From Streptomyces sp. (GTDB taxonomy: Bacteria; Actinomycetota; Actinomycetes; Streptomycetales; Streptomycetaceae), in the NCBI RefSeq assembly GCF_019510245.1, contig NZ_JAEKKT010000116.1:1-64000 (forward strand): a stretch of 64,000 nucleotides of DNA, written 5' to 3'. Made by a program: the position numbers and the translations under genes. The notes beneath the pieces were generated by a model. The model saw only the letters and a program-made list of their open reading frames with translations. It was not told the DNA's origin and did not search any database. Below, piece after piece: positions 11,771-64,000 of this stretch (position 1 is the stretch's first letter; each line of letters starts with the position of its first letter).

Positions 11771-12265
11771 GTGACATTGCGTGTCTCACGGCGGCGTCTG
11801 GGGGCCATGCTGGGTGTGGGGGCAGCCCTGGTGATGGCGGGTGTCCTCGTGTGGTTCCTGCGTGCTGCGCCGGAGGCCGGCGTGCACGCGCCGGAGCCCG
11901 TGTCGCACGTCGACACCGCGACCCGGGACTGTCTGCTGACGTCGACGGACGTGGACACCACGGGCACGTGGGCGGCGATGCAGAAGACTGCCGGGGCGAG
12001 TGACTCGAAGATCGTCGTCCAGCGCTACCGCCTCCCGACCGGTGCGGACGCCGTCGCCTACGTCAACACACTTGTGCGGCTTCGCTGCTCGACCGTCGTC
12101 ACCACGGGCACCGCAGCTCGCTCGGCCGTCGCCGCCCGCCTCGCGGCGGGGGCGGTCCCGCATGTCCGCTTCGTGGTGGTGTCCAGTCAGCCGTTGCGTG
12201 GGACTACGCATCTGGACCCGGACGCGGTGAGCGCGCGGAGCCTCTCCGGCGCGCTGGCCGCGTGA
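11771..12265 (+). CDS. Hypothetical membrane-anchored protein
   Basis: 164 aa; N-terminal TM segment LGAMLGVGAALVMAGVLVWFL followed by soluble domain. Confidence 0.6.
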   Translation: MTLRVSRRRLGAMLGVGAALVMAGVLVWFLRAAPEAGVHAPEPVSHVDTATRDCLLTSTDVDTTGTWAAMQKTAGASDSKIVVQRYRLPTGADAVAYVNTLVRLRCSTVVTTGTAARSAVAARLAAGAVPHVRFVVVSSQPLRGTTHLDPDAVSARSLSGALAA

Positions 12266-12530
12266 CAGGTCACTGCGGCTGCGAGAGAACCTCACCCCGG
12301 CCACCCTCGCTCTGCGTTTGCGCAGCTCACAGTGGTGGGGTGGCCATCCCCGGCGTACGGCCCGACTCGTCTGCCGCCACCTGCGGCTTTGCCCGCGAAA
12401 GGGCCTCGACCGTCATCGCGACAGCCATTGGAGCACCACCCTGGGGTCGCAGAGCTTGCTGCGGTCTTGCCCCGGTGGGATTGCGCGGCCTCGGCGTCGG
12501 CCCTCGACCTGGGGCGTGCTTCAGAAGGGA

Positions 12531-13193
12531 TCAAGCATCGTGGTCGGCCGGGCCGGGCGTCTCGTCCGCCCAGCCTCGGGACAGAGCCAGTCGGCCGGAC
12601 CGGTGTGCGTTGCGCTGTTCGGTGACCCATCGCTCGACCTGGTTCACGGATGTCGCGAGCGACTGGCCAGTGGTGTCGATCAGGTGGGTGCGCCATCGCG
12701 GGTCCACGGCGGTCCACGTGGTCCATCGGTGCCAGGCCATCTCGGGCCAGCTCCCGTCGATGATGATGTCGGGCCGGAAGCGTGGGTCGCGGGCGTGCCC
12801 GCGGTGCCAGGCCGCCCAGCCGCAGAAGGCGTCGGTGGCGGCCTGGTCCCATCGGCCGCCGTCGCGTGCGGCGAGTCGGTCGCGCCGGTCCTGGTCGGCG
12901 ACGTCGATCAGGCAGACGGCGATCCCGTTCAGCGACGGTGCCGAGGGGGCGGCCAGGACTTCGCCCAGCGGTGAGTTCCCGGACAGCAGCAGGTCCATTC
13001 CACGGTCCTGGTACTCCAGCGCTCGGCGCACCCACACCTCGGTCATGCGGTTGCGCCAGTGGGGAGGGATCGGAGGGTCCGGGACACCGACTTCGTCGAA
13101 GTCGTGCACCACGATCCGGTCGAGTCGGCCGGCGACGGCGAAGGCGAGCGCGGTCTTGCCCGCGCCGCTGGAACCGGTCAGCTTGAGCAACAT
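12531..13193 (-). CDS. P-loop NTPase / nucleotide-kinase-like AAA protein
   Basis: 220 aa; Walker A LTGSSGAGKTALAFAVAGRL at N-terminus. Confidence 0.75.
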   Translation of the reverse strand: MLLKLTGSSGAGKTALAFAVAGRLDRIVVHDFDEVGVPDPPIPPHWRNRMTEVWVRRALEYQDRGMDLLLSGNSPLGEVLAAPSAPSLNGIAVCLIDVADQDRRDRLAARDGGRWDQAATDAFCGWAAWHRGHARDPRFRPDIIIDGSWPEMAWHRWTTWTAVDPRWRTHLIDTTGQSLATSVNQVERWVTEQRNAHRSGRLALSRGWADETPGPADHDA

Positions 13194-13311
13194 CTGGCCA
13201 GGGTGACAGCCCGCAAAGGCATTCTCGACTGGTTTGTCGGGGGCCTGCGCCGGCCCTGGCGAGTCGCCGGATTCTTACAGCCACTCATGGATGGCGGCGA
13301 TCAGCGATCGA

Positions 13312-13427
13312 GGCCGCACTCCACCGCGTGGCGCTTCTTGTCTCTCGTGGCGACACGGTCGACTGGGGCACGCTGCGGGCCGCGGCTGCGGCTGCGATGT
13401 GGACCGCCGGGCCGTACGCGGGCTGAA
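13312..13427 (+). pseudogene. Remnant of an SMI1/KNR4-type immunity gene
   Basis: AALHRVALLVSRGDTVDWGTLRAAA then stop; nt strongly similar to 11207-11241 of the intact SMI1 gene. Confidence 0.5.
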
Positions 13428-13632
13428 ATCCTCCGCCGGTCTCCCGGAACGCCTGGCGTACAGCCCGGCTCGGTAGGACCCGCCCCGGCGACGCGGGCTT
13501 CGGCGGCGGGGCTGTGGTGGCCGAACCTGAATCCTCCTCCATGCGCACGCACGTATTTGAGGCGTGGGTCACAGCAGGGCCGTGTCCGGCGCATCAGCGG
13601 GAAAACGAGTACGCAACGGATAGGAGGCGGAT

Positions 13633-61448: not shown

Positions 61449-61460
61449 TGTCCGCGCTTG

Positions 61461-61532
61461 CTGGGATACCAGGACTCGAACCTGAACTAACGGAACCAGA
61501 AACCGTCGGGCTGCCAATTACCCCATATCCCA
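61461..61532 (-). tRNA. tRNA-Gln (anticodon CTG)
   Basis: Minus strand TGGGATATGGGGTAATTGGCAGCCCGACGGTTTCTGGTTCCGTTAGTTCAGGTTCGAGTCCTGGTATCCCAG; cloverleaf folds with CTG in the anticodon loop. Confidence 0.93.
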
Positions 61533-61992
61533 TTCGCACCGAAGACCGCGGGAGCACGGTCAGCCGGGCGTCGCCCTGCCGCGTGTCGCTGTAGGGCGTT
61601 GCCCAACCTATCCGCGCTCCCCGCGGTGTGCCGTGAGGTGTGCGGGGTGTGTCGACCAGAGTTTTGCCCGTGCTCTCCTCCCGGACCCGCCGAGGGCTTC
61701 GGCCCCTCCTGCGCGTCGCCGGTCCTCGAAGCCTCCTGCCGCGCCGCAGGCGCCGACAGTGGCGGGGCGAGGTCCGCGCGGTCGTTCGGTGCCTTCGGAC
61801 AGAAGCTCATCCTGCGGCGTCCGGGGCCGGTTCGCCGGTCACCGGAGCCGATCGGGGGATTCCTTGCGCCGATCGTCTCGCCCGATTGCGGGACCGCTCG
61901 GCGTGGCCATAACTTCGACATGTCGGAAATATTCCGAAAAGGTAAACAGCTTGCCTTATGTTTGCCTTCCAGTGGCATCGAACGGAGTCTTC

Positions 61993-62496
61993 ATGTCGGT
62001 GATGACCGGTACCCCGCCTCTGCAGCAGTTCGGCCAGCAGTTCGCCGGGCCGCAGCAGCAGCTCGCGCAGGTCGTCCAGCAGTCCATCCAGCAGGCCTGC
62101 CAGCAGGCGAGCCAGCAGATCGCGCAGCGCATGCAGCAGACGCTGCAGCAGCTCCACCAGGTCCAGCAGCAGTTGCAGCAGCAGGGCATCGCCCACCACG
62201 CCCACCCCTACATGGCCGTCGCGCTGCACCACTCCCTGATGCAGGGCGTGCGCAGCGCCGTGGAGCAGTCCGTGCAGCAGGCGCTGCCGGCCGCGATCCT
62301 GACGCTGGTGCAGCAGAGCCAGCAGAGCCAGCAGAGCCAGCAGGGACAGCAGGGCCAGCAGGGCCAGCAGCAGTGGGGCGGCGGGTTCGGCCAGCAGTCG
62401 TTCGGTCAGCAGCCGTTCGGCCAGCAGTACCCGCAGCAGTACCAGCAGCCCGGCTTCGGCTTCGGCCCGATGGGTCAGCACTTCGGTATCGGCTGA
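61993..62496 (+). CDS. Gln-rich low-complexity protein with C-terminal Q/G/F-rich segment
   Basis: ATG with GGAG RBS 5 nt upstream; MSVMTGTPPLQQFGQQFAGPQQQLAQVVQQSIQQACQQASQQ...QQSQQSQQSQQGQQGQQGQQQWGGGFGQQSFGQQPFGQQYPQQYQQPGFGFGPMGQHFG. Confidence 0.8.
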   Translation: MSVMTGTPPLQQFGQQFAGPQQQLAQVVQQSIQQACQQASQQIAQRMQQTLQQLHQVQQQLQQQGIAHHAHPYMAVALHHSLMQGVRSAVEQSVQQALPAAILTLVQQSQQSQQSQQGQQGQQGQQQWGGGFGQQSFGQQPFGQQYPQQYQQPGFGFGPMGQHFGIG

Positions 62497-62611: not shown

Positions 62612-64000
62612 ATGGTTAAGGTGGATGTAATGGTCAAGGACAGGCCCGGAAGCAAGCCCAGGAGCAGCCGCCAGAGCGAATCCGAGGGCGCGGGGGCCGG
62701 CGGGCCGGGCCCCGAGGAAAAATCGGCGCCACGCAAGAAGGGCGGACCGTCGCCGATCGCGGTACAGCCGCGCCGGTCCCGCTACATGGTGACCCCGCTG
62801 CCGCAGCAGCTGCTGCCCGTGGGAGTGCCCGAACTCGGCATGGACGCGGTGTGTGACCACCTGGAGCGGATGCCCGAGGTCACGGTGGTTCGCAGACTCA
62901 CCCCGTCGGACAAGCTGCAGTCGGCGGGAGTGCAGCCCTCCTGCCCGGAACTCGTGGTCGTCGAGGCCGCCGAAGCCCAGGTACCGGCGATGCGGTCGCT
63001 GCATGTGCACATCGAGCCGGATCTGCCGCTGTCCACGGCCGTACCCGTCGCCATGCCGGCCGCGGGGTTGCTGCCGCTGCGCGACCCGGGGCTGGTCATG
63101 CCGCTGGAGAAGCCCCTGCAGGTCACGATCAGTGTCTGCCGTCCGGACGGCGAACCGCTTGCCGGTGCGGGGGTGTTCCTGATCGGGTCGGCATGGCCGA
63201 GCCAGGGCGTCACCGGCCCCGACGGGAGGGTCACCCTCACGCTGGCGACGGAGACCGCGCAGTCCGTGCAGGCACTGTACGTCCGGGCCGCGGGCGGCTA
63301 CACGGACCGCTGGATCCAGCGCCCCGAACTCTCGGCGACGCAGGACAACCTGGTCACCCTCACCCCGCTCTCCAGGGTCTACCCGGAACTGGAACAGCGG
63401 CAGAGTTACGGCTGGGGCCAGCAGGCCATGCGGCTGGACCGGCTGCCACCCACGTTCCGTGCTTTCGGCACCAAGATCGCCGTCATCGGTACGGGCGTCG
63501 GCATCGACCACCCCGACCTGAAGCAACAGGTGCGCTCCGGCGCCGATTTCGTGCGCGGCACGAAGGAGGGCTGGGCCCGCGATCCGGTCGGCACCGGCAC
63601 CCACGCGGCAGGCATCATCGTCGGGGCGGACACGGGCAAGGGCGTCATCGGCATCGCCGTCGACGCCGAACTCGAGGTCTGCGAGATCATGCCCGACGGT
63701 CACTTCAGCGACCTGATCGCAGCCCTGGACCACTGCGTCGAGCACGAGGTCGACATCGCCCACATCCAGGTGGCGACCCCGTACCCCTCGTCGCTGGTCT
63801 CCCGCAAACTCGCCGATGCCACCGCGGCGGGCATCGCCTGCATCGCTCCGGTCGGCGACAGCGGCGGACCGGTCTCCTTCCCCGCCTCCCTGCCCACCGT
63901 CTTCGGCGTGGGCGCCCTGGGAGCCTTCGGCACCTACCCGCCCGACACCTCCCAGGCCACCCACATCGGGCCGCAGTTGAGCCCGGAGGGGCTGTTCGCC
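62612..64000 (+). CDS. S8 (subtilisin)-fold protein, probable pseudo-protease; partial, runs off the window end (alternative start ATG 62630)
   Basis: Open frame to window end: MVKVDVMVKDRPGSK...TKIAVIGTGVGIDHPDLKQQV...DPVGTGTHAAGIIVGADTGKGVIGIAVDAELEVCEIMPDG...AGIACIAPVGDSGGPVSFPASLPTVFGVGAL. Confidence 0.8.
   Translation, partial: MVKVDVMVKDRPGSKPRSSRQSESEGAGAGGPGPEEKSAPRKKGGPSPIAVQPRRSRYMVTPLPQQLLPVGVPELGMDAVCDHLERMPEVTVVRRLTPSDKLQSAGVQPSCPELVVVEAAEAQVPAMRSLHVHIEPDLPLSTAVPVAMPAAGLLPLRDPGLVMPLEKPLQVTISVCRPDGEPLAGAGVFLIGSAWPSQGVTGPDGRVTLTLATETAQSVQALYVRAAGGYTDRWIQRPELSATQDNLVTLTPLSRVYPELEQRQSYGWGQQAMRLDRLPPTFRAFGTKIAVIGTGVGIDHPDLKQQVRSGADFVRGTKEGWARDPVGTGTHAAGIIVGADTGKGVIGIAVDAELEVCEIMPDGHFSDLIAALDHCVEHEVDIAHIQVATPYPSSLVSRKLADATAAGIACIAPVGDSGGPVSFPASLPTVFGVGALGAFGTYPPDTSQATHIGPQLSPEGLFA

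Follow-up and report, generated by a model that had tools for sequence, protein, structure and literature searches.

The window analyzed here is a 64,000-bp stretch of DNA, bases 1-64000 of contig C262 from an 11.6-Mb draft Streptomyces genome. It ends within P0001, a gene encoding a subtilase-like protein that had been picked out, from the window sequence alone, as a candidate pseudo-protease. The open frame described in that original prediction is real and runs on past the end of the window. Read on the contig, it extends for 587 codons from its ATG to a stop codon at C262:64373-64375. Immediately upstream lies P0002, which encodes a Gln-rich protein. Two hairpins are found in the P0002 leader and another between the two genes, and an extra tRNA-Gln(CUG) gene is divergently oriented (Table 1). 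An apparently intact gene for a sedolisin-type protease, named from its sequence, sits 2.2 kb downstream of P0001 (L009:8609-10621; C262:66609-68621, minus strand). All start codons are predictions, and genes in the loci used for comparison were called with a simple GC-based script.

Table 1. Features of the P0002-P0001 locus (window positions unless marked C262)
Feature	Position	Strand	Basis or remark
Extra tRNA-Gln(CUG) gene	61460..61532	-	ARAGORN; Rfam tRNA, 53 bits; divergent from Gln-rich gene
Two leader hairpins of Gln-rich gene	61923-61937 and 61939-61968	+	Both fold in window sequence
Gln-rich partner gene P0002 (167 aa, 35% Gln)	61993..62496	+	Directly upstream of P0001, same strand
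Hairpin with 17-bp stem, between P0002 and P0001	62513..62551	+	Folding
Pseudo-subtilase gene P0001 (587 aa)	62612..64000, continuing to C262:64375	+	ORF and ATG
N-terminal propeptide-I9-like domain (~residues 57-140)	62780..63031	+	AlphaFold2 topology; stand-alone homologues
Ig/CarboxypepD_reg-like beta domain (~residues 165-245)	63104..63346	+	Weak Pfam matches; strands in model
Catalytic Asp position, Gly293	63488-63490	+	On Asp32 (BPN' numbers); Savinase and family alignments
Catalytic His position, Thr328	63593-63595	+	On His64 (BPN' numbers); Savinase and family alignments
Oxyanion-hole Asn position, Asp416	63857-63859	+	On Asn155 (BPN' numbers); Savinase and family alignments
Catalytic Ser position, Gly498	C262:64103-64105 (outside window)	+	On Ser221 (BPN' numbers)

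A subtilisin fold without catalytic residues

In a Pfam profile search, P0001 matched PF00082 with 68.5 bits, well above the gathering score of 21.8. We ran AlphaFold2 on the closest orthologue, from Streptomyces shenzhenensis (locus L147), which is 95% identical to P0001; 531 residues were modeled, leaving out the N-terminal low-complexity stretch. The model had a mean pLDDT of 87.4 and a pTM of 0.87, and Foldseek matched it to subtilisin DY (1bh6) with an E value of 6e-23, a TM score of 0.90 (normalized by target) and an rmsd of 2.3. The S8 part aligned to subtilisins over about 307 to 319 columns, with no long insertion apparent. An intact relative from Streptomyces sulfonofaciens modeled equally well.

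Two further domains had been proposed N-terminal to the S8 part. The propeptide-like segment held up: in the model it has the order beta-alpha-beta-beta-alpha-beta, plus a short extra helix, and resembles subtilisin propeptides, though it has no Pfam match. Stand-alone homologues of this domain, of about 85 aa, occur in some loci encoding intact relatives (hmmsearch, E 3e-13 to 2e-8). The carboxypeptidase-regulatory-like beta domain can be upheld only as a weak similarity: its matches to PF13620 (E 0.016) and PF17789 (E 0.005) both fall under the Pfam cut-off. Beta strands are nevertheless present in this region of the model, and in one intact relative the domain matches Big_1 at 7e-8, just under the cut-off. 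Inspection of the P0001 sequence revealed no apparent signal peptide, and no membrane anchor was seen in it.

The motifs on which the original prediction rested, AVIGTGVGIDHPDL, GTGTHAAGII and CIAPVGDSGGPVSFPA, had been read correctly. Alignment with Savinase (E 1.5e-24) and with the family places Gly, Thr and Asp of P0001 on the catalytic Asp and His and the oxyanion-hole Asn, respectively. Reading the contig beyond position 64000 revealed the remaining motif, DGTGTASAH, in which TALDGTGTASAHIAGLAAL aligns with Savinase ASLNGTSMATPHVAG; the nucleophile is Gly, a fourth lost residue. The substrate wall has changed as well, N-[LM]-S-L-G of active enzymes being H-I-[AQ]-V-A in the pseudo-subtilases. 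P0001 thus has neither the Asp-His-Ser triad nor the oxyanion Asn of an active S8 protease. No alternative catalytic Asp or His was found in the alignment and no close orthologue with an intact triad among the sequences compared. Sequencing error or chance can be excluded because the substitutions are common to the whole orthologous clade. That P0001 lacks protease activity is, as an inference from its sequence, near certain.

Retention of the fold, loss of the triad, the sharing of that loss among orthologues and purifying selection together would define a pseudo-subtilase, and all four are met (the last two are documented below). The alignments and the model show P0001 to be, within what such data can establish, a true pseudo-subtilase, with the subtilisin fold kept and the triad and oxyanion Asn gone. 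The candidate pseudo-protease is thereby supported, and simple gene decay, which it had set aside, is rejected on the strength of intact frames and a dN/dS of about 0.26.

Distribution and ancestry of the pseudo-subtilase

Orthologues 75 to 100% identical to P0001 were present in 18 of 296 Streptomyces genomes, a few more of which encoded relatives at 35 to 46% identity. Throughout the pseudo-subtilase clade the Asp position is Gly and the oxyanion position is Asp. The His position is Thr or Ser, and Asn once, so that none of these three catalytic residues survives in any member. The Ser position is mostly Gly, with Val in two members and Ser kept in two (L141 and L173). Pairwise Nei-Gojobori comparisons (171 pairs) gave a median dN/dS of 0.26 for the whole protein, 0.34 for the N-terminal part and 0.215 for the S8 part, with maxima of 0.37 for the whole protein and 0.38 for the S8 part. 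By this sequence-based measure, the clade is evolving under purifying selection.

A scan of 85,462 genomes found at least 79 related loci. Among the matches listed, members with an intact triad and the same architecture came from Streptosporangiaceae, Actinoplanes, Bradyrhizobium, Massilia, Oxalobacteraceae and others; Streptomyces pseudo-subtilases were among the matches too. In a 92-sequence tree built on the relatives among these matches, the 28 proteins with Gly for Asp formed one clade (support 1.0), within which the Ser-retaining L141 was basal. Its sister was a protein of Saccharopolyspora soli with the residues DHDS, in which only Asn has changed, to Asp; members with DHDA, DSDA and DRDA came next. 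All 34 members of the larger clade so defined (support 1.0) have Asp at the oxyanion position, and the clade is set among intact enzymes. From the tree we infer that, in the Streptomyces branch, the oxyanion Asn was probably the first residue to go, with Asp and His following and Ser last.

In S. sulfonofaciens, genes for two relatives with intact triads lie within 3.7 kb of each other (L075:6564-8339 and 11994-13619). Plasmids yielded no close full copy of P0001, only a few distant relatives. A plasmid-borne relative, L180:5055-6641 (NZ_CP020041.1), is an intermediate with Asp for the oxyanion Asn and the Ser motif DGTTIAAAH. Public records call it an "S8 family serine peptidase" and assign it to proteolysis in GO, an annotation that, judged from the residues present, is probably wrong for this protein and for the pseudo-subtilase clade.

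Upstream of the genes for intact relatives there is likewise a low-complexity and frequently repetitive gene, as seen in Streptosporangiaceae, Actinoplanes, Bradyrhizobium, Massilia and Oxalobacteraceae. Many of these partners consist of glycine-zipper units ending in PFSA-like motifs; that of Bradyrhizobium has about eight copies of a LQSFWSVLKKIGQGVQTG-like unit. Polyprotein-like glycine-zipper or amphipathic genes lie just upstream of intact S8 genes at L168:4367-5458, L126:4195-5478, L102:3989-5224 and L160:4500-5585, none with a confident whole-protein match in Pfam or NCBIfam. Many actinobacterial intact cassettes have an additional upstream gene for a helical protein of about 85 aa, which was not seen in the Asp-oxyanion clade at the loci compared.

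Intact cassettes (L103, L106, L107, L120 and their neighbors) often stand beside genes for universal stress protein, Hsp20, CBS-domain and DUF1876-like proteins, named from sequence only; this neighborhood was seen in Streptosporangiaceae and one Bradyrhizobium. A dormancy or low-oxygen setting for the intact cassettes is possible. Since universal stress protein, Hsp20 and CBS genes adjoin them, we looked upstream of the cassettes for FNR/FixK or DevR-like hypoxia operators and found only isolated, unconvincing matches.

A Gln-rich partner gene, conserved hairpins and an extra tRNA-Gln

P0002 had no confident family match in Pfam, NCBIfam or PADLOC-DB. Its homologues were present in 20 of the 296 Streptomyces genomes, all 20 of which also encode an S8 protein of the P0001 lineage: an orthologue in 18, and an intermediate S8 in genomes G218 and G237. 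The reverse also holds, with a handful of exceptions that are distant or degraded (G045, G167 and G007). The other flanking genes vary between loci, leaving the Gln-rich gene as the only conserved neighbor. In G237 the P0002-type gene is one gene away from the intermediate S8 gene, whose own Gln-rich partner sits between them. The two genes thus form a module; we count as parts of it the covarying leader hairpin, the strong hairpin between the genes and, in the lineages that have it, the additional tRNA-Gln(CUG) gene.

The C-terminal tails of the partners are conserved within each S8 clade while their bodies vary. The tail is GQPFGIG in Streptomyces, PVxAGxGF-like in Streptosporangiaceae and T[MLI]H in proteobacteria; P0002 itself ends in GQHFGIG. 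The G218 partner combines arms of the type that accompanies DHDA proteins with a core of the P0002 type, from which we infer that the arms pair with the S8 protein and that the cores are exchangeable.

In the P0002 leader, the second stem has compensatory changes in eight of its nine pairs across 33 sequences. The first also seems to covary (GTCGGA/TCCGAC versus GTCAC/GTGAC), judged by eye only. These changes support a conserved dyad in the leader, without fully separating an RNA hairpin from a protein operator. Between the two genes, folding of the segment 62500-62575 gave -50.3 kcal/mol (z -6.5), and a hairpin was found at the equivalent place in all 21 loci examined. Its sequence is nearly identical over most Streptomyces module loci. 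We infer that it may lower expression of the downstream gene.

A version of the tRNA-Gln(CUG) gene at least 99% identical to the window copy was found in 3 of the 296 genomes and only adjoining the module; the next best match was 93%. It also occurs in G446, L146 and L147, and a tRNA-Gln lies at the module in L099, L146 and L147. In the other genomes examined there are two distinct tRNA-Gln genes, about 82 to 89% identical to the window copy, which we take to be the housekeeping pair, and the window copy was for that reason rejected as a housekeeping gene. The pair was not found in the window's own draft assembly, possibly because of a gap. Integration at a tRNA gene was rejected as a general rule, since tRNA-Gln adjoins the module in some lineages only. 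Past the tRNA gene, the lineages of the window, G101 and G142 share no related DNA, so the tRNA gene appears to travel with the module. Glutamine in P0002 homologues is encoded by 1,153 CAG codons and 19 CAA codons.

Interpretation and known systems

We propose that the module descends from an intact-triad, cytosolic-looking S8 enzyme whose gene closely followed that of a low-complexity and frequently repetitive partner. The pairing is observed; that the ancestral enzyme cut its partner is a plausible inference. The Streptomyces branch would then have lost its catalytic residues in the order given above while retaining the partner gene. The pseudo-subtilase would now bind the Gln-rich protein without cutting it, via the conserved terminal arms, as a dedicated chaperone, scaffold or anchor for an abundantly made partner. 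The extra tRNA-Gln(CUG) suggests high demand for the partner, as does a hairpin that could keep expression of the second gene lower. Cutting, binding and bulk expression are all inferred, and we judge this best reading, in which a protease that once processed its partner now binds or scaffolds an abundant Gln-rich protein without cutting it, to be evenly poised between right and wrong. No interaction, expression or activity data bear on it, and adjacency need not mean contact. Two orthologues keep Ser, though without Asp and His. The bulk-supply argument is weakened by the restriction of the extra tRNA to some lineages and by the general CAG bias of high-GC genomes. The peptide-binding or scaffold module proposed originally remains plausible in outline. 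The changed substrate wall makes a substrate-like binding mode doubtful, however, and the likely ligand is the adjacent Gln-rich protein, which the original prediction left out and for which there are no binding data.

Two readings that deny the protein a new role can be set against this one. It might still cut or transfer peptides through an unusual residue set: Ser remains in L141 and L173, and in prohormone convertase 2 an Asp at the oxyanion position does not by itself abolish activity. Yet among the matches listed Asp and His are absent from all 28 members of the clade, 26 of them have Gly or Val in place of the nucleophile and the substrate wall is altered, so we consider residual activity very improbable. 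Still harder to credit, and disfavored, is the view that the gene is a decaying pseudogene left over from a mobile cassette and serves no function today. The patchy distribution and the degraded copies or fragments in G007, G142 and G237 would fit decay, but frames are intact in all full-length copies, dN/dS is 0.26 and the leader hairpin is conserved.

The other alternatives accept a function. The Gln-rich and glycine-zipper proteins could be peptide effectors or their precursors in an antagonistic system, processed to maturity by the S8 protease where the cassette is intact, with the Streptomyces protein a derived immunity or carrier protein. The partners in intact cassettes do look polyprotein-like, with repeated glycine-zipper or amphipathic units and Gln-rich linkers between them. 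Partner bodies vary while tails are kept, the distribution is patchy with unrelated flanks, and S8 proteases mature cyanobactins, the PatA model being weakly matched. This reading is nonetheless unlikely: no transporter or modification enzyme is conserved beside the genes, the Streptomyces partner lacks such repeats, and PADLOC-DB gave only weak generic subtilase and coiled-coil matches, none forming a listed anti-phage defense system. We doubt even more that the pseudo-subtilase is a sensor or receptor for a peptide or small ligand, with the Gln-rich protein relaying the signal, in the manner of CspC and CspA during germination of Clostridioides difficile. In its favor, CspC likewise has Thr for His and Gly for Ser (PMC6636752), P0001 weakly matches the NCBIfam models of Csp pseudoproteases, and Streptomyces also forms spores. 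The Csp matches are far under the cut-off, however, and only about 7% of the Streptomyces species sampled have the module, which therefore does not belong to general spore biology. Regulation of a paralogous intact protease was rejected, because the genome encodes no second protein with the N-terminal architecture of P0001.

Returning to the non-cutting binder, a wider generalization, which we offer only tentatively, is that the S8-fold protein recognizes the arms of its low-complexity partner throughout: the active form would mature glycine-zipper polyproteins in several phyla, and the Streptomyces form would have given up cutting to become the partner of a Gln-rich protein that is made in very large amounts and has its own traveling tRNA-Gln(CUG). 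In the open-licence literature we found no description of a Gln-rich protein with a subtilase, or of a pseudo-subtilase in Streptomyces, and none of the family libraries searched recognizes the cassette of low-complexity partner and S8 gene as such. To our knowledge, the pseudo-subtilases so far described in bacteria come mainly from clostridial germination. The present clade is a second case, of independent origin, and because living species still show several steps of the loss, both the sequence of decay and the role acquired since are directly testable. A tRNA gene dedicated to the Gln-rich protein, if borne out, would be an unusual case of tRNA supply tailored to one product.

Among characterized subtilases, Savinase and subtilisin DY share the fold of the P0001 lineage, and all their catalytic and oxyanion residues differ in P0001. 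The best NCBIfam match of the S8 part is the mycosin model (TIGR03921, E 4e-23), but its 82.1 bits fall short of the 278.75 cut-off and no T7SS/ESX genes are conserved beside P0001. The intact cassettes (in Nonomuraea, Microbispora, Planotetraspora, Bradyrhizobium, Massilia, S. sulfonofaciens and others) share the three-domain architecture, about 34 to 46% identity with P0001 and the upstream low-complexity gene. They differ in having Asp, His and Ser intact, Asn or Ser at the oxyanion position, partners often with glycine-zipper repeats and, in many actinobacteria, the extra helical-protein gene or, in some, a stand-alone I9-like gene.

The closest known system is CspC/CspA of C. difficile. 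CspC is a subtilase pseudoprotease with G485, T170 and D105 at the triad positions (PMC6636752), and it acts in complex with CspA (PMC12880746). By profile score P0001 falls outside the Csp family proper, reaching only 20.7 bits with the NCBIfam CspC model, whose cut-off is 675. It shares with CspC/CspA the subtilisin fold, a prodomain-like N-terminal part and a lost triad. Unlike CspC, it has also lost Asp and the oxyanion Asn and is paired with a Gln-rich protein rather than a sister protease, with no intact paralogue in its genome. Alignment of the modeled S8 part with subtilisins gave no sign of the jelly-roll insertion that Csp proteins carry in the subtilase domain. Both proteins have Thr at the His position and Gly at the Ser position, presumably by convergence, and CspC demonstrates that a protein with these two substitutions can be functional.
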